Origin: Adlercreutzia hattorii
GTDB taxonomy: Bacteria > Actinomycetota > Coriobacteriia > Coriobacteriales > Eggerthellaceae
Reading direction: 5' to 3'
NCBI RefSeq assembly: GCF_011405655.1
Contig: NZ_AP022829.1
Span: forward strand, 1,473,001 to 1,537,000
DNA: 64,000 nucleotides
Shown: piece by piece, positions 1,751 through 57,968 of the stretch
How the letters are laid out: each line of letters starts with the position of its first letter
Position numbering within the stretch: the first letter of the stretch is position 1
The notes under the pieces: generated by a model
Told to the model about the DNA's origin: nothing
Seen by the model: only the letters and a program-made list of their open reading frames with translations
Databases searched by the model: none
Made by a program: the position numbers and the translations under genes

Positions 1751-3758
1751 CGATCATCGATCCCACAACCAGAGACGATCCTACGACCGAGCGAGCCAGG
1801 GCGATCGCAACGCCCAGGGCGGCGCGCGGCAGAACCGCGGGCCGCGCCCCGGCGGCAAGTCCGGCGACTTCCGCAAGGGAGGCAAGCCCGGCGGGTTCCG
1901 CAAGGACAGCAAGCCGGGTGGCTACCGCAAGGATGACCGGGGGCCTCGTGACGGGAAGCCGAGCGACTTCCGCAAAGGGGGCAAGCCCGGCGGGTTCCGC
2001 AAAGACGGGAAGCCGGGTAGCTTCCGCAAGGATGATCGCGGCCCCCGCGACGGGAAGCCCGGCGACTTTCGCAAGGGCGGCAAGCCCGGCGGATTCCGCA
2101 AGGACGACCGGGGCCCGCGTGACGAGCAGCGATCCGGCGCCGACCGGAAGGACTTCCGTGCCCGCGATGGCAAGCCAACTGGTGGGAGCGCCCCTCACAA
2201 GGATTTCGGCCCTCGGCGCGATTCCCGCGAGGCGGGCCACCCGCGCGAGGTGTTCATCGACGGCAAGCTCATGGCGGCCCCCGACCAAGACGCCCCGCAG
2301 GATCGCGGCCCGCGCTTCGAGGGGCCTCGCGACGGCGGCCGCGGAGGCGCGGCGCGGCGCGACCAGGTGCGCCGGCAGAAGGCCCACAAGGCCACGACGG
2401 CCCGCGAGCTTGCCCTGGCGGCCATCCACCAGCTGAGGGAACGCGACGCGTTCGCCCAGGACATCATCGCCAAGACCATCGATATCTCGCCCCTGTCGCG
2501 GGAGGATCGGGCCTTCGCCACCCGGCTCGTGCTGGGCGTGGTCAGCACGCGCGGCACCCTGGAGGACATCATCACGGGCTGCATGGACTCGCCCGACGAT
2601 GCGGCCCCGGCAGTGCGCGACGCGCTGTGCCTGTCGGCCTACGAGATCATCTTTCTGCAGAAGAGCCCCCATGCCGCCGTCGATCAGGGCGTCGAACTGG
2701 TGAAGTCGGTGGCGCCGCGCGCGGGCGGTCTCGCCAATGCGGTGCTGCGCCGCGTGGTGCGCGCCAAAGAGGCCTTCCCCTTCGGCGACCCGCGCACCGA
2801 TATCGCCGCCTATGCGCGGCTGCACGGCTTCCCGGTGTGGCTCGCCAAGCGGCTCATCGCGGAGCTCGGACCCGAGGGCGCCCGCGACTTCATGGTGGCC
2901 TCGAACGAGCCGGCTCCGGTCTACATCGCCGTCAACGCGCTGAAGGCCGCCACCGACGAGGAGGTCGTCTCGGTTCTCGCGGCGGCTCACGCCGAGCCTG
3001 AAGCCATGGCGCTGGGCGGCTGTGCCGTACCCGGCTGCTACAAAGTGGCGTCGGGCGTGCCCCTGCTCGATGGCCGGGTGCGCCGCATGATAAACCAGGG
3101 CTTGCTTCTCGTGTCCGACGCCACCTCCCAGGCGGTGGCGGATCTGGTGGTGGGAGATACGGCACCGGAGTCGTTCTTGGAGATCGGCGCCGGCCGCGCC
3201 ACCAAGACCATCCTCGACCAGAGCATCGCCTACCGGCGACACGGCAAGCAGATCCCCGAGTACGTTACGGTGGACGTGCACGCCTTCAAGACCAAGCTGC
3301 TCCAAGAGCGCGCCGAGCAGTACGGGGCTCATGTGAGCGAGGCCATCATCGGCGACGCCACCGACTTGGACGCCCTGGTGGGCGAGCGCACCTTCGATCG
3401 CGTGTTCATCGACTCCCCGTGCACGGGGCTGGGCACGCTCCGGCGTCATGCGGACATCCGCTGGCGCCTGCGCCCCGAAACCATTGCCGAATCGGCCGAG
3501 CTGGACGCGCGTCTCTTGGAATCGGCGGCATCCCATGTGGCCCCCGGCGGCATTCTTGCCTATGCCACCTGCACGGTCACCCACGAGGAGAACGCCGATG
3601 CTGTGGAGGCCTTCCTGGCCACCGAGGCCGGTGCGGCCTTCGAGGTGGTGCCCTGCCGAAACCCCGATCTCGACATCGAGCTGCCGTTCTTCTCCACCGT
3701 TTTGGAGCCCGGCGGCCCCGACGCCCACTTCCTCGCCCTCCTGCGCCGCAAAGCCTAG
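1743..3758 (+). CDS. rsmB: 16S rRNA m5C methyltransferase RsmB-like with long basic repeat N-terminus
   Basis: A RsmB/Sun-family enzyme that methylates a cytosine in 16S rRNA with SAM. Residues about 1-215 are low-complexity and very basic, made of repeated GDFRKGGKPGGFRKD-like units (nt 1855-2170). A NusB-like RNA-binding domain starts near residue 217, and the methyltransferase domain follows. The two catalytic Cys motifs are clear: DSPCTGLGTLRRH near 556 and YATCT near 606. SAM motif I reads LEIGAGRATKT instead of the usual DLCAAPGGKT. At 671 aa it is roughly 220 longer than typical RsmB. GTG 1743 was chosen for the AGGAAGGA about 10 nt upstream; it overlaps the fmt stop. Confidence 0.9.
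   Translation: MHNDHRSHNQRRSYDRASQGDRNAQGGARQNRGPRPGGKSGDFRKGGKPGGFRKDSKPGGYRKDDRGPRDGKPSDFRKGGKPGGFRKDGKPGSFRKDDRGPRDGKPGDFRKGGKPGGFRKDDRGPRDEQRSGADRKDFRARDGKPTGGSAPHKDFGPRRDSREAGHPREVFIDGKLMAAPDQDAPQDRGPRFEGPRDGGRGGAARRDQVRRQKAHKATTARELALAAIHQLRERDAFAQDIIAKTIDISPLSREDRAFATRLVLGVVSTRGTLEDIITGCMDSPDDAAPAVRDALCLSAYEIIFLQKSPHAAVDQGVELVKSVAPRAGGLANAVLRRVVRAKEAFPFGDPRTDIAAYARLHGFPVWLAKRLIAELGPEGARDFMVASNEPAPVYIAVNALKAATDEEVVSVLAAAHAEPEAMALGGCAVPGCYKVASGVPLLDGRVRRMINQGLLLVSDATSQAVADLVVGDTAPESFLEIGAGRATKTILDQSIAYRRHGKQIPEYVTVDVHAFKTKLLQERAEQYGAHVSEAIIGDATDLDALVGERTFDRVFIDSPCTGLGTLRRHADIRWRLRPETIAESAELDARLLESAASHVAPGGILAYATCTVTHEENADAVEAFLATEAGAAFEVVPCRNPDLDIELPFFSTVLEPGGPDAHFLALLRRKA
1855..2170 (+). 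repeat. In-frame tandem repeats encoding GGKPGGFRKD units
   Basis: Near-identical units of about 15-20 codons encode GDFRKGGKPGGFRKD(DRGPRDGKP), repeated four to five times with drift. They lie entirely inside the N-terminal extension of the rsmB gene and preserve the frame. Such tracts can expand or contract by slippage or recombination. The basic Gly/Arg/Lys composition resembles RNA-binding tails on DEAD-box helicases and ribosome-associated enzymes. Confidence 0.85.
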
Positions 3759-9946: not shown

Positions 9947-10064
9947 GGCGGAGGCGCGACGGGCTCTCCCGCGCGCAAGTTGCGCAGCGAACGGAACAGC
10001 CCAGTGGGCTGTTCCGCCGAGCGAGCCATTGCTTGAGCGCGGGAGAGGCCGTCGCGCCTCCGCC
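9947..10064. repeat. Hairpin repeat family B, copy 1
   Basis: Outer arms 9947-9962 and 10049-10064 pair perfectly over 16 nt, and inner arms 9964-9974 and 10037-10047 over 11 nt. A second hairpin sits at the centre (9992-10016, GGAACAGCCC around AGT). The unpaired stretches between arms and core, GCGCAGCGAA and GAGCGAG, match those of copies 2 and 3, while the outer stem sequence differs. It sits between korC and the second XRE-cupin gene. Confidence 0.85.
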
Positions 10065-10162
10065 GACGGCACCTGCGCGCGGGGACACCCGACCGCCTCC
10101 AGCCCTCGGGGATTGAATAAGGCACCGTCCAGTCAGGGGCGGGACAAGATAGAAGGACGAAC

Positions 10163-10745: not shown

Positions 10746-10855
10746 CGCGATTTCGGGTGCTTCGACCGAGCGAGTTCCGCAGCGAACGAAACAGTCCAGT
10801 GGACTGTTTCGCAGAGCGAGGACTGTCTGAGCGAATCGAAGTACCCGGAAGCGCG
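10746..10855. repeat. Hairpin repeat family B, copy 2
   Basis: Outer arms 10746-10765 and 10836-10855 pair with three mismatches or wobbles. The central palindrome at 10787-10811 (GAAACAGTCC around AGT) differs from copy 1 by compensating changes on both arms. The flanking unpaired pieces GTTCCGCAGCGAA and GAGCGAGGACTGTCTGAGCG are shared with copy 3 in reverse complement. It lies between the XRE-cupin gene and the synthetase gene, so it could sit in the synthetase leader RNA. Confidence 0.85.
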
Positions 10856-10897
10856 ATGCGGAGGACAACAAATAGGAGAGCAGAGAGAAGCACCACT

Positions 10898-12571
10898 ATG
10901 GATCATGTTCTGAAGAAGTACTGCCCGAGAATTGAATTCGATTCCTACGAGGACTTCGCCGAGAACTTCACCATCGAGGTTCCCGAGGCCTTCAACTTCG
11001 GTTTCGACGTCGTCGACGAGTGGGCCGCCGTGGAGCCCGACAAGCGGGCGCTTCTGTGGACCAACGACGCCGGCGAGGAGCGTGTGTTCACGTTCACCGA
11101 CATCAAGCGCCTGTCCAACCAGGCCGCCAACGCCTTTAAGGAGCTCGGCATCGGCAAGGGCGACGTGGTCATGTGCATCCTGCGCCGCCGCTGGGAGTAC
11201 TGGGTGTGCGCCGTGGCCCTCTGCAAGTTGGGCGCCACCATCATCCCCGCGTCGCTGCAGCTCACGCGCAAGGATGTGGTCTACCGTGCCAACAGCGCCG
11301 ACGTGAAGGCCATCGTCGCCGTGAACGACGAGTACGTCTGCACGCAGGTGGAAGAGGCCATGCCCGATTGCCCCACGGTGCGCGAGAAGTTCATCGTGGA
11401 CGGCTCCCGCGAGGGCTGGGTCGATTTCGACGAGCTCATCGCCGGCTACCCCGATACCTTCGAGCGTCCGACCGGCGAGGCGGGCGTCACCTCCAAAGAC
11501 ATCATGCTCATGTACTTCACGAGCGGCACGACGGGCAACCCCAAGGCCGTGGAGCACAACTTCGCCCATCCGCTCGGCCACATCATAACGGCGAAGTACT
11601 GGCAGCAGGTGCAGGAGAACAAGCTGCACATGTCGGTGACCGACTCCGGTTGGGCCAAGTTCGGCTGGGGCAAGATCTACGGCCAGTGGATCGCCGGCGC
11701 CACCATCTTCGCCTACGACATGGACAAGTTCGTGCCCACCAAGCTTCTCCAGAAGATCCAGGACTACAAGCTCACCACCTTCTGCGCGCCGCCCACCATG
11801 TACCGCTTCATGCTGCAGGAGGATGTGGCCGCCTACGATCTGTCCAGCGTGGAGAACTTCGCCACGGCCGGCGAGCCGCTGAACGCGGAGGTGACCATTC
11901 AATGGGAGCGCCTCACCGGCAAGAAGATCCGCGAGGGCTTCGGTCAGACCGAGGGCCCGGTGCTTCTGGCCACCTTCCCGTGGATCGAGCCGAGGCCCGG
12001 CTCCATGGGCAAGCCGTCGCCCCTGCTCAACGTGAAGCTGCTCGACGACGACGGCCGCGAGGTCGATGACGGCGAGGAGGGCGCCATCTGCGTGACGGGC
12101 CTGAAAGAGGCCTACCCGCCGGGGTTGTTCGTGGGCTACTACGGCAACCCGGAGCGTACGGAGGAGGCCGTGGGAGGGGAGTATTACAACCTCCACGACA
12201 TGGCTTGGCGCGATTCCGACGGCTATTGCTACTTCGTGGGTCGCAACGACGATGTCATCAAGTGCTCCGGCTACCGCATCGGCCCCTTCGAGGTGGAAAG
12301 TGCGCTGGTGGAGCATCCGGCCGTGGTGGAGTGCGCTGTTACGGCGGCGCCGGATCCCATCCGCGGCAAAGTGGTGAAGGCCACCGTCGTGCTCGCGAAG
12401 GGCTACGAGGGCACCGACGTGCTCACCCGCGAGCTGCAGGACCACGTGAAGAAGACCACGGCTCCCTACAAGTATCCGCGCATCATCGAGTACGTGGACG
12501 AGCTGCCCAAGACCATCGGCGGCAAGATCAAGCGCAAGCTCATCCGCCAAACCGACGGCATTCAGGAGTAG
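10898..12571 (+). CDS. AMP-forming acyl-CoA synthetase (copy 2)
   Basis: A 557-aa ANL-family enzyme, clearly paralogous to the one at 4654 (shared GWGK..GQW, APPTMYR, GFGQTE, RPGSMGKP, GRNDDVIK.SGYRIGPFE, TAPYKYPRIIEYVDELP). YFTSGTTGNPK lies near 206, GFGQTEG near 347, and the catalytic Lys in IGGKIKR near 543. The usual YHTGD motif is replaced by YYNLHD, keeping the ribose-binding Asp. It lacks an insertion of about 40 residues present in copy 1 near residues 165-210. ATG 10898 follows AGGAG and purine-rich RBS sequence. The different binding-pocket residues suggest a different acid substrate. Confidence 0.9.
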   Translation: MDHVLKKYCPRIEFDSYEDFAENFTIEVPEAFNFGFDVVDEWAAVEPDKRALLWTNDAGEERVFTFTDIKRLSNQAANAFKELGIGKGDVVMCILRRRWEYWVCAVALCKLGATIIPASLQLTRKDVVYRANSADVKAIVAVNDEYVCTQVEEAMPDCPTVREKFIVDGSREGWVDFDELIAGYPDTFERPTGEAGVTSKDIMLMYFTSGTTGNPKAVEHNFAHPLGHIITAKYWQQVQENKLHMSVTDSGWAKFGWGKIYGQWIAGATIFAYDMDKFVPTKLLQKIQDYKLTTFCAPPTMYRFMLQEDVAAYDLSSVENFATAGEPLNAEVTIQWERLTGKKIREGFGQTEGPVLLATFPWIEPRPGSMGKPSPLLNVKLLDDDGREVDDGEEGAICVTGLKEAYPPGLFVGYYGNPERTEEAVGGEYYNLHDMAWRDSDGYCYFVGRNDDVIKCSGYRIGPFEVESALVEHPAVVECAVTAAPDPIRGKVVKATVVLAKGYEGTDVLTRELQDHVKKTTAPYKYPRIIEYVDELPKTIGGKIKRKLIRQTDGIQE

Positions 12572-12731
12572 TTCCGTTCGCCCTGACGGGACGAACGGGA
12601 ACGCCGACGCTGCGGCTCCGACAGGCACCTGGCCTTGCCCCTTGTTTTCACCTCGGCGCGTACCGAAGTACGCTTGGGTGAAAGACGGGGCAATTCCAGG
12701 CACCTGTCGGAGCCTCGCTGATTTTCTTGGT
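12572..12731 (+). repeat. Stop-codon-adjacent hairpin element family A, copy 1
   Basis: It begins at the first base after the synthetase TAG. A first hairpin pairs CCGTTCG with CGAACGG (CCGTTCGCCCTGACGGGACG...). A second, long hairpin pairs GGCTCCGACAGG near 12614 with CCTGTCGGAGCC near 12703, with further inner stems (TTGCCCC/GGGGCAA, TTTCACC/GGGTGAAA, GCGTAC/GTACGC). The conserved tail TCGCTGATTTTCTTGG follows. Copies 2 and 3 lie at 14440 and 57801 in the same orientation. Confidence 0.88.
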
Positions 12732-12800
12732 CCAATTCCTCTCCCTTTTCTTCTCGATGGGCTAAAAACACCATTGGCGAGAATTTCGCGGTGATCGGCG

Positions 12801-13902: not shown

Positions 13903-14439
13903 ATGGAACTTGAGAAGTCCCAGACATGGAAGAACCTGGAGAGCGCGCTCTCCCAGGAGGCCGTGGCCTACTGCGAGTACACGTTCTACGGCCAGCAGGC
14001 CGCCAAGGACGGCTACAAGCAGATCTCCGACATCTTCAACGAGACCGCCGGCAACGAGCTGCACCACGCGAAGCTGCACTACAAGAAGATGCACGGCGGG
14101 AAGGTACCAGGGACGCTTGACAACCTGAAGGCCGCCGCCGCTAGCGAGGACGAGGAGGTCGGCATCTACACCGACTATGCCAAAACCGCCCGCGAGGAGG
14201 GCTTCGCCGATCTGGCCGACTTCTTCGAGGGCCTGGCCGCCATCGAGAAGAGCCACGAGAACCGCTATCAGCTGCTCATCGAGCGCATCGAGAACGACGA
14301 GGTGTTCCGCCGCAAGGAAGTGAAGGTGTGGGTGTGCACCGTGTGCGGCCACATCGAGATCGGCACCGAGCCCCCCGAGAAGTGCCCCGTCTGCGAGCAC
14401 CCGCAGGGCTACTTCGAGATCAAGGCCGAGAACTTCTAA
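13903..14439 (+). CDS. Rubrerythrin
   Basis: A 178-aa peroxide-scavenging diiron protein of anaerobes. The N-terminal ferritin-like four-helix domain carries Glu-rich iron ligands (ALSQEAVAYCEYTFYG, ETAGNELHHAKLH, GLAAIEKSHENRY). The C-terminal rubredoxin domain has CTVCG and CPVCEHP, which bind one Fe(SCys)4. It reduces H2O2 with electrons passed from rubredoxin or ferredoxin. ATG 13903 was chosen because AAAGGAG lies 9 nt upstream; a TTG at 13894 has no such site. The stop is followed directly by repeat element A copy 2. Confidence 0.95.
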   Translation: MELEKSQTWKNLESALSQEAVAYCEYTFYGQQAAKDGYKQISDIFNETAGNELHHAKLHYKKMHGGKVPGTLDNLKAAAASEDEEVGIYTDYAKTAREEGFADLADFFEGLAAIEKSHENRYQLLIERIENDEVFRRKEVKVWVCTVCGHIEIGTEPPEKCPVCEHPQGYFEIKAENF

Positions 14440-14604
14440 GTTCCGTTCGCCCTGACGGGACGAACGGCACTCCCGATGCTGTGGCTCCGACAGGCACCTG
14501 CCCTTCGCACTCAGCGCTTTCCCTCACGGCCCCAAGGCCGCTCGGCCGCGCTTCAAGCGAATTGCAGGCACCTGTCGGAGCCTCGCTGATTTCCTTGGGC
14601 GAAC
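14440..14604 (+). repeat. Stop-codon-adjacent hairpin element family A, copy 2
   Basis: It begins at the base after the rubrerythrin TAA. It has the same two-hairpin layout as copy 1: CCGTTCG/CGAACGG, then GGCTCCGACAGGCACCTGC near 14481 against GCAGGCACCTGTCGGAGCC near 14563. The central loop sequence is quite different from copy 1 but still self-complementary (GGCC/GGCC, AGCGC/GCGCT). The tail TCGCTGATTTCCTTGGGC is shared with the others. Confidence 0.88.
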
Positions 14605-14652
14605 CTGTGGCCATCCCATTTTCGCCTTTTTAGAAAAAATTCAACACAACGC

Positions 14653-14681: not shown

Positions 14682-14689
14682 GCAATCGT

Positions 14690-14810
14690 CCTTTAAATGC
14701 GGTACAGAGAGGCCGACAAGGTAACCCCAATCAGCGCAGCGCCCGTCAAGTGGGCGGCAAGCGCAACGACGCAGGAAGCCTAGTCGCCAGACGGGCTTTT
14801 TCTTTTGCCC
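14690..14810 (+). promoter_or_regulatory. PyrR-binding attenuator leader of pyrR-pyrB-pyrC
   Basis: CTTTAAATGCGGTAC followed by AGAGAGGCC and then CAAGG (14691-14721) matches the PyrR-binding loop known from Bacillus leaders (TCCAGAGAGGCT...AAGG). A downstream segment GCCCGTC (14741-14747) can pair with GACGGGC (14790-14796) as antiterminator, competing with the terminator hairpin at 14776-14798. UMP-bound PyrR would favour termination and so switch off the operon when pyrimidines are plentiful. The same loop occurs at 28213-28250 upstream of carA. Confidence 0.85.
14776..14806 (+). terminator. pyr attenuator terminator 1
   Basis: AAGCC-TA-GTC pairs with GAC-GGGCTT around GCCA and runs into TTTTTCTTTT. 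It lies 90 nt before the pyrR start, within the leader, as expected of a conditional terminator. Confidence 0.75.
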
Positions 14811-56845: not shown

Positions 56846-57799
56846 ATGGATCTCGACGCCTACTTCGCTGAAAACCCCATGGGGGGCTCATTTCCCACCA
56901 ATCCCGACTTCAAGAGCGGGTTCGTGACGCTGGTCGGGCGCCCCAACGCCGGGAAGTCGACGCTTCTGAACACCATCATGGGCAAGAAGATCGCCATCAC
57001 CTCGAACACGGCCCAGACGACGCGCCACCGCTTCCGTGCCGTGCACACCACCGATGACATGCAGATGATCATTGTGGACACTCCCGGTCTGCACAAGCCC
57101 CAGGACGCCCTCGGCGAGGAGCTGAACACGAGCGCGATCAAGGCTTTGGAGGACGTGGACGTCGTGGCCATGCTCATCGACGCATCGAAGCCCATCGGAC
57201 GGGGCGACGAGTGGGTGGCCGCCCAGGTGCGCGCCGCGAAGGGCTCGGCGAAGATCTGCGTGCTTTCCAAGTCCGACCTGGCGAGCGATGCCGAGATCAG
57301 CGCCCAGCGCGAGGCGGCCGAGAAGCTCTGCGACTGGGACGCTATGGTGGCGCTGTCGGCCGAGACGGGCCGCAACGTGGACGCCTTCGTGGAGGAGGTG
57401 CAGTTCCTGCTGCCGGAGGGCCCGGCGTGGTTCCCGGCCGACATGGAGACCGATCAGCCGCTGGAGGTCATGGTGGCGGAATTCATCCGCGAGAAGATCC
57501 TGCGCAACTTCTTCGACGAGGTGCCCCATGCCATCGGGGTCGCCGTGGAGGAGATGGAGTTCGAGAAGCCGAACCTCTACCGCATCTACGCGGTCATCTA
57601 TGTGGAGCGCGACAGCCAGAAGGGCATCATCATCGGCAAGCGCGGGGCAGCCATCAAGCGCATCGGCACCGAGGCCCGCAAGGACTTGGAGCTGCTGCTG
57701 GGGGCGAAGGTGTTTTTGGATCTTTCGGTGAAGGTGCGCAAGAACTGGCGCCGCGACGCCAACCAGATCCGCCGCTTCGGCTACGGCGAGGGAGCGTAG
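56846..57799 (+). CDS. era: GTPase Era
   Basis: A 317-aa GTPase that binds the 3' end of 16S rRNA. G1 is GRPNAGKSTLLN near 32, switch and G3 DTPGLHKPQ, and G4 is SKSD, a small change from the common NKxD. The C-terminal KH domain has GIIIGKRGAAIKRIGTEARKDLE. GAAAGGA precedes ATG 56846. Repeat element A copy 3 starts 1 nt after its stop. Confidence 0.96.
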   Translation: MDLDAYFAENPMGGSFPTNPDFKSGFVTLVGRPNAGKSTLLNTIMGKKIAITSNTAQTTRHRFRAVHTTDDMQMIIVDTPGLHKPQDALGEELNTSAIKALEDVDVVAMLIDASKPIGRGDEWVAAQVRAAKGSAKICVLSKSDLASDAEISAQREAAEKLCDWDAMVALSAETGRNVDAFVEEVQFLLPEGPAWFPADMETDQPLEVMVAEFIREKILRNFFDEVPHAIGVAVEEMEFEKPNLYRIYAVIYVERDSQKGIIIGKRGAAIKRIGTEARKDLELLLGAKVFLDLSVKVRKNWRRDANQIRRFGYGEGA

Positions 57800-57800
57800 T

Positions 57801-57968
57801 CGTTCCGTTCGCCCTGACGGGACGAACGGACTGGCCGATGCTGCGGAGCCGACAGGTGCCCGCCCTCGCACCTCAAAGCTTTCCTTCGCGTACCTCAAGT
57901 ACGCTCAGCCGCTTTTCGGCACGATTGCGGGCACCTGTCGGCCCCTCGCTGGCTTCCTTGGGCGAACC
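57801..57968 (+). repeat. Stop-codon-adjacent hairpin element family A, copy 3
   Basis: It begins one nt after the era TAG. The layout is as in copies 1 and 2: CCGTTCG/CGAACGG hairpin, then GCCGACAGGTGCCCGC near 57847 pairing perfectly with GCGGGCACCTGTCGGC near 57928. Here both arms carry matched changes relative to copy 2 (CTGC/GCAG becomes CCGC/GCGG). The centre includes GCGTAC/GTACGC as in copy 1, and the tail TCGCTGGCTTCCTTGGG is conserved. Confidence 0.88.

Follow-up and report, generated by a model that had tools for sequence, protein, structure and literature searches.

A double-hairpin repeat behind gene ends in Adlercreutzia and other Eggerthellaceae

The 64,000-nt stretch of the Adlercreutzia hattorii genome analysed here (the window) holds three copies of a double-hairpin element of about 165 bases, and searches of related genomes confirmed that this element is real and widespread. 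It lies at gene ends on the strand of the gene, its strand is linked to the replichore, its stems show Watson-Crick covariation, its sites are occupied in some genomes and empty in others, and near-identical units or modules recur at unrelated sites. Our leading reading, which may well be correct although we hold it tentatively, is an old, family-wide, REP-like dispersed palindrome that would work as DNA, be placed by a replication-coupled single-strand process and be kept perfect by template switching and conversion. We have filed the element as one of the REP kind, acting at the DNA level, with features of its own: a fixed orientation to the gene together with a fork bias, and a hairpin 1 that can be built from the gene end. 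To our knowledge, no REP family has a fixed gene orientation and a strong fork bias, or a hairpin 1 built from the end of the host gene. The polarity and the anchoring at gene ends make the placement of REP-like palindromes testable with existing gut bacterial genomes.

Structure and distribution of the element

The three copies and their upstream genes all lie on the plus strand. Copy 1 (12571..12737) follows a gene for an AMP-binding, acyl-CoA synthetase-like enzyme (ACS; 10757..12571, stop TAG at 12569-12571), copy 2 (14440..14605) follows the rubrerythrin gene (13903..14439, stop TAA at 14437-14439) and copy 3 (57802..57968) follows the gene for the era GTPase (56846..57799, stop TAG at 57797-57799). 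Pfam assigned the upstream products to an AMP-binding enzyme, rubrerythrin and a GTPase with KH domain (era), respectively. An earlier note on this DNA had reported three structured copies of about 165 nt, and these were found in place with small corrections of their starts (12571, 14440 and 57802). The motif GTTCCG opens each copy: in copy 1 it begins at 12571, and its G is the final base of the ACS stop TAG; in copy 2 it begins at 14440, the base following the rubrerythrin TAA; in copy 3 it begins at 57802, 2 nt past the era TAG.

Every copy in the window begins with a compact hairpin, continues with the motif GAYGCTGYG and a longer hairpin spanning about 100 nt, and ends in the tail CTCGCTGRYTTCCTTGGGCG (CTCGCTGATTTTCTTGGTCC in copy 1), the hairpins being those given by RNA folding. 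In copy 1, hairpin 1 (12571..12602) is followed by the conserved head GACGCTGCG (12606..12614), hairpin 2 (12614..12714) and the conserved tail (12714..12733). The same order holds in copy 2, with hairpin 1 at 14440..14470, the head GATGCTGTG at 14475..14483, hairpin 2 at 14483..14582 and the tail at 14582..14601, and in copy 3, with hairpin 1 at 57804..57830, the head GATGCTGCG at 57837..57845, hairpin 2 at 57845..57945 and the tail at 57945..57964. No fourth tail was found in the window with up to 4 mismatches allowed. The RNA folding z-scores of the three copies are -8.1, -6.7 and -6.6, hence the copies are not due to chance.

The neighbourhood of the copies has some features of its own. 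Matches in the other six genomes begin at residues 1, 15, 38, 38, 44 and 45, and the true start of ACS probably lies further inside the 10757..12571 frame. In two genomes (loci L308 and L312) the match to the translated frame crosses an in-frame stop, one TGA and one TAG. Behind copy 2, at 14686-14806 (+), there is a leader resembling a PyrR-binding site (Rfam PyrR, 26.5 bits, below the cut-off of 54). A core TCCTTTAAATGCGGTACAGAGAGGCCGACAAGG of this leader stands behind six of the seven rubrerythrin orthologues, and the seventh has its beginning, up to the end of the sequence shown. Elsewhere in the window, a 99-nt direct repeat occurs in five imperfect copies that overlap one another, at positions 1826-2149 (+).

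In general, the unit reads in gene direction as gene end, usually 0-4 nt, hairpin 1 (median 12 pairs), a few nt, GAYGCTGCG, hairpin 2 of about 100 nt and a tail CTCGCTGAC that is conserved and has no T-run. In Adlercreutzia the tail usually runs on into TTCCTTGGGCGAACC; many copies in other genera have different sequence at this point. Past the tail there is no conserved promoter-like motif. The plan was the same in most of 20 family-level copies. Read on the opposite strand, the head contains CGTC in about 70% of the group representatives. Two copies (L049 and L141) carry further palindromic insertions nested in hairpin 2, and L287 is longer too.

The genome of the window (a 2.9-Mb single contig, G000) has about twenty copies. 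BLAST against this genome at E<=1 gave 30 rows, in which full copies stand beside half, tail-only and other partial ones and some rows overlap or are marginal; a covariance model (R1) built from 58 cores gave 18 matches. With R1, matches were found in all nine Adlercreutzia genomes (201 in total, 10 to 41 per genome), and the more sensitive searches, R1 included, together gave a range of 10 to 47 per genome. At family level, matches were present in 89 of the 119 genomes sampled and in 34 of the 48 genera; the remaining 30 genomes had none at the filters of that search. Weaker matches occurred in two further families of the order, and in a wide DNA scan many among the matches listed were chance matches in other phyla. 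Gene-end position, orientation and covariation hold in most cases in this search of genus and family genomes, which the earlier note had proposed; the random placement without covariation that would have spoken against it was not seen across the genus and the 20 family-level copies.

For closer study, 139 copies were taken out of the 201 genus matches, and the 138 with a retrieved locus were used, of which 137 have a recognisable tail. They form 76 upstream groups, 36 of these with at least two copies. No match to the element was found in viral contigs searched with one pattern, nor in plasmids and phages searched with copy 2. Rfam gave no match for the window at the gathering score, and with the threshold relaxed to E<=10 it gave nothing relevant in a stretch of 261 bases that includes copy 2. 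Literature searches, with most subscription journals outside their scope, returned no description of the element.

Gene ends, hairpin 1 and covariation

The stop codon lies at most 43 nt from the head in 103 of the 105 copies with a confident upstream ORF, and 33-39 nt from it in 66. Orientation along the upstream gene, described earlier for the three copies, holds genus-wide and in most of the 20 family-level copies. The description of the element as standing right after a stop codon fits the protein genes and is too narrow, since tRNA and RNase P RNA genes also precede it. An Rfam scan of 20 loci placed a tRNA directly upstream in five and RNase P RNA (rnpB) in three, and 5S rRNA and some unassigned upstream regions were judged by eye. 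At locus L263 the copy sits between two closely spaced co-directional genes. TPP riboswitches are present at two of the three loci with the element behind the RNase P RNA gene (L195, 2134-2258; L193, 174-298).

Of the 105 gene ends bearing the element, 23 have a palindrome of at least 10 bp across the stop, and these belong to 13 of 60 upstream groups; among 482 sampled control ends, three of which bear the element, there was one. The excess has p about 1e-17 when counted by copies, among which orthologues are not independent. Most of these palindromes seem to be made from the end of the gene itself. Judged by eye, 16 (10 groups) are specific to their gene and consist of the last codons and the stop plus their inverse, and seven (3 groups) resemble the common hairpin 1 of the repeat, whose loop TGA or TAA doubles as the stop. 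Between loci L255 and L266 the arms have synonymous differences with complementarity kept, and the orthologues L254 and L258 have the common hairpin 1 at this site instead; L255 lies below the coding filter of the palindrome count.

These ends invite a bolder reading, namely a mobile DNA palindrome that would enter at replication forks, at exact gene 3' ends and in gene direction, with half of hairpin 1 copied in reverse from the last codons and stop of the host gene. We consider it doubtful, with some real chance of being right. If true, it would be a new kind of single-strand-DNA element, present in 34 of the 48 sampled genera of a gut bacterial family.

The paired changes in the stems, to which the earlier note had drawn attention, were borne out over the cores of 58 copies, where both partners have changed in 27 of 28 pairs. 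There were 325 double-changed cells versus 78 (sd 8) in shuffles, and 19 cells were changed on one side only. Furthermore, 96% of the cells were paired, versus 31-44% (at most 43.5%) with the partner slid. A stem maintained as RNA should tolerate G·U. In hairpin 2, with the columns of conserved mismatch excluded, the 137 copies have 46 G·T and 53 A·C mispairs (20 and 20 in the 76 group representatives), and hairpin 1 has 11 and 20 (7 and 7 in representatives). Control T-run hairpins, found with both mispair kinds scored equally, gave 22 G·T and 5 A·C in 74 hairpins of family genomes, and 22 and 6 in 88 hairpins including loci of other phyla. Fisher's tests against the 74 family hairpins gave p=0.0005 with hairpin 1 and p=0.002 with hairpin 2; when hairpin 2 was restricted to the representatives, p was 0.01. 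Since the stems have no excess of G·U, upkeep as DNA is indicated. These results point to stems that co-vary like folded DNA, not folded RNA, and DNA-level upkeep by template switching and conversion is a better reading of the covariation than structured RNA. Near-perfect covariation is usually read as proof of a structured RNA; the element is a clear counter-case, in which the covariation has no G·U signature and goes together with replication polarity, and RNA-discovery pipelines could well classify it as a new ncRNA. Template switching rewrites one arm from the other and gives perfect stems in one event, a published route to such change (PMC8794818).

Two features of hairpin 2 speak against an account by mutation alone: at least three quarters of the copies keep a CA/CA mismatch, and the bottom strand folds better than the top (-69.9 vs -58.3 kcal/mol), with the lower energy of the two in 130 of 137 copies. 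The conserved mismatches also count against template switching, because switching should erase them.

A 3'-UTR RNA element has to be weighed against this DNA-level reading. Its hairpin at the stop would stall ribosomes, protect the mRNA end or end transcription, roles suggested for some REPs of E. coli. The element does abut stop codons and its folds are strong; in E. coli, REPs no more than 15 nt from a stop reportedly cause ribosome stalling (PMC12306157). In the genome of the window a T-run terminator stands behind only one of 12 copies, a result that points away from the genus figure but comes from a small sample. Across the genus, T-run terminators are not displaced: 27 of 137 copies have one no more than 110 nt past the tail, versus 28 of 147 control gene ends. 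This count, the lack of a G-U signature among the 325 double-changed and 19 one-sided cells, the presence of the element behind tRNAs and rnpB, and a replication polarity above that of terminator-bearing genes make the RNA reading an unlikely one.

Of the three readings that the earlier note had offered, the best supported is an element targeting gene ends (stop codons, in the note). The 3'-UTR RNA found no support, its mispairs being near strand-symmetric, unlike those of the T-run hairpins of family genomes, and neither did a terminator without T-run, in view of the equal frequency of T-run terminators behind the element and behind control ends. A role as intrinsic terminator was likewise not supported on average, the conserved tail lacking a T-run and the gene's other terminators not being replaced. 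A T-run hairpin precedes the head in 6 of 137 copies, for example behind a tRNA.

Site occupancy and replication polarity

The best-supported of those options, an element that targets gene ends, agrees with the occupancy of orthologous sites as read by eye: the element is present behind era in one of eight genomes with the gene found, behind ACS in one of seven and behind rubrerythrin in three of seven, where two more have hairpin-1-like remnants. Flanks gave 83 matches to shorter or empty counterpart sites, many of them overlapping, and thirteen were aligned. In these alignments no clear target duplication was seen, the sequences being too diverged to exclude one. The comparison of L263 with L309 and L312 resembles an insertion between two closely spaced genes, and L142, L016 and L023 are decayed copies with the tail retained. 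A 5-bp CGCTG target duplication around hairpin 2 was considered and dropped, as no hairpin-2-less copy with GACGCTGAC occurred among the tail-only copies read.

Copies at unrelated sites may be almost the same: in 66 non-orthologous pairs, 93% or more of the core is shared. In L171/L180 the core is identical, one base differs in hairpin 1, the flanks are unrelated and the similarity begins at the first base of hairpin 1. In L164/L211 the core is shared and hairpin 1 is unrelated. Since hairpin 1 is common to some pairs and unrelated in others, modules are exchanged between sites. Recent insertion was dropped as the origin of the L171/L180 identity; conversion is more likely, because both orthologous sites hold the element or a remnant.

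In four genomes, 122 of 132 copies (92%) are co-directional with the replication fork: 37/38 in G081, 30/31 in G076, 20/22 in G000 and 35/41 in G048. The rows counted were 38 of 40 in G081, 31 of 38 in G076, 41 of 47 in G048 and 22 places of G000 including partial copies; G109, in 50 contigs, was excluded. Where the genome is a single contig, the element changes strand close to dnaA and again around the opposite point. In G048 the terminus was placed opposite dnaA with the length taken as about 3.95 Mb, and four of its six exceptions lie at 0.69-0.88 Mb, adjoining this assumed terminus. The sampled genes of G081 and G000 are co-directional in 287 of 433 cases (binomial p=1e-12 for the excess of the element), genes with a T-run terminator in 30 of 46 and transcription-unit ends in 152 of 248, genes and terminators having been called by simple custom scripts and orthologous copies not being independent. 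The upstream genes may be unusually well expressed, and hence co-directional for other reasons. Orientation to the upstream gene is a stricter rule than orientation to the fork, because the two replication exceptions of G000, L002 and L011, still follow their upstream genes.

Such polarity would also be expected of a chromosome-maintenance site of the host, that is, an oriented DNA signal (for lagging-strand priming or restart, gyrase, condensin or translocase guidance) under selection for direction. The 92% co-directionality, the conserved head and tail and the 10 to 47 matches per genome fit such a site, and a CTG kept in both linkers may be reminiscent of primase start sites; nevertheless, we think it improbable, as orthologous sites are often empty, a quarter of the family genomes (30/119) lack a match at the search filters and the abutment to gene ends has no explanation under it.

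The copies may also be fossil palindromes of an extinct transposon, of which those with the more stable hairpin strand as lagging-strand template have been deleted. The more stable (bottom) strand is indeed the leading-strand template in the observed orientation, and decayed tail-only copies exist. Still, we give this only a small chance, since the gene orientation holds even in L002 and L011 and loss cannot place copies 0-4 nt from stops. That the antisense strand is functional, whether as an RNA or as single-stranded DNA running counter to the upstream gene, is very improbable: the bottom strand is the more stable one and the conserved CA/CA columns become tandem G-U there, but the asymmetry of mispairs is confined to a few conserved columns and gone elsewhere in hairpin 2, and there is no conserved promoter-like motif beyond the tail.

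Proposed placement and related systems

Our preferred reading remains the REP-like palindrome working as DNA. Copies would arrive through a replication-coupled single-strand process beside a hairpin at a gene end, and this process would read the strand that is the lagging-strand template in the observed orientation. Template switching during replication would keep each palindrome perfect and could rebuild hairpin 1 from the last codons of the gene itself, while ectopic conversion would homogenise the copies. We prefer this reading because of the gene-end position, the fork polarity, the DNA-like covariation, the stop-spanning palindromes, the empty and decayed sites and the homogenisation. Against it stand the lack of an enzyme, the more stable bottom strand of hairpin 2, the lack of an identified target duplication and the seven of 23 palindromic ends that look like the repeat's own, so that only 16 look gene-derived.

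No mobilising enzyme is encoded in the unit, and none was found by searches for Y1 transposase and RVT_1. Y1 transposase was rejected as mobiliser, PF01797 being present in two of the nine element-bearing genus genomes with no match in the other seven. G000 has six Y1 (IS200-type) transposase genes, at 173102, 184471, 1180037, 1660788, 2132178 and 2132964, with two distinct scores. Reverse transcriptase was unsupported in this role as well: RVT_1 occurs in 27 of 119 family genomes, namely in 23 of 89 element-bearing versus 4 of 30 element-free genomes (p=0.21), which leaves 66 element-bearing genomes without it. It was found in six of the seven genus genomes of the family sample.

Among known systems, the E. 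coli REPs would be the closest kind, and the bacterial-C group II introns the closest in way of working, the element not being one of them. REP/BIME sequences and the element are both short dispersed extragenic palindromes in many copies, mainly behind genes (PMC3733652, PMC12306157), and some E. coli REPs likewise sit close to stop codons, at 15 nt or less (PMC12306157). REP/BIME stems are short, with an unpaired GTAG or CGTC at one end. The element differs in its length of about 165 nt, with two unlike hairpins, conserved linkers and stems variable in sequence, and in having one orientation to the gene and, in 92% of copies, one to the fork. CGTC-tagged REPs also lack a dedicated transposase, and the stems of CGTC families are 8-9 bp and start with A/T pairs (PMC3733652), shorter than the median 12 pairs of hairpin 1. 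In addition, the element differs from REP/BIME with a RAYT (Y1) transposase in that this enzyme is present in only two of nine element-bearing genomes and that hairpin 1 can be made out of the end of the host gene.

Bacterial-C group II introns insert directly behind terminator hairpins and prefer the lagging-strand template (PMC8919778); the element likewise stands directly behind a hairpin at a gene 3' end and prefers one fork strand. It has, however, a core of 132 positions without ribozyme domains (no Rfam match) and no reverse transcriptase in the unit, and most element-bearing genomes (66/89) have no reverse transcriptase at all. MITEs, which have terminal inverted repeats and a target-site duplication, are comparable in that the element is non-autonomous, palindromic, gained and lost, but the element has gene and replication polarity, and no parental transposon was found.

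The attC site of integrons is an imperfect palindrome behind a stop codon, in gene orientation, which keeps structure over sequence and folds as a single strand, with R' GTTRRRY and R'' RYYYAAC boxes. The element is also palindromic behind the stop, gene-oriented and more conserved in structure than in sequence, but it is dispersed behind core genes and not in cassette arrays. Its common hairpin 1 opens with GTTCCG, and GTTRRRY/RYYYAAC ends were not noticed in a by-eye reading.

Long nested palindromes of another family, in which GATTCGCTCAGACAGTCCTCGCT and TTCGCTGCGGAACTCGCTCGG enclose a hairpin, also occur in the window, at 10751-10861 (-) and 9956-10066 (-). This family bears the short motifs CCTCGCT and CGCTGCGG of the element, in reversed order around its hairpin. 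In the DNA examined it was seen at 19 distinct places, including L296, L371, L377 and L381; at least one place, L374, is apparently a chance match inside a gene.
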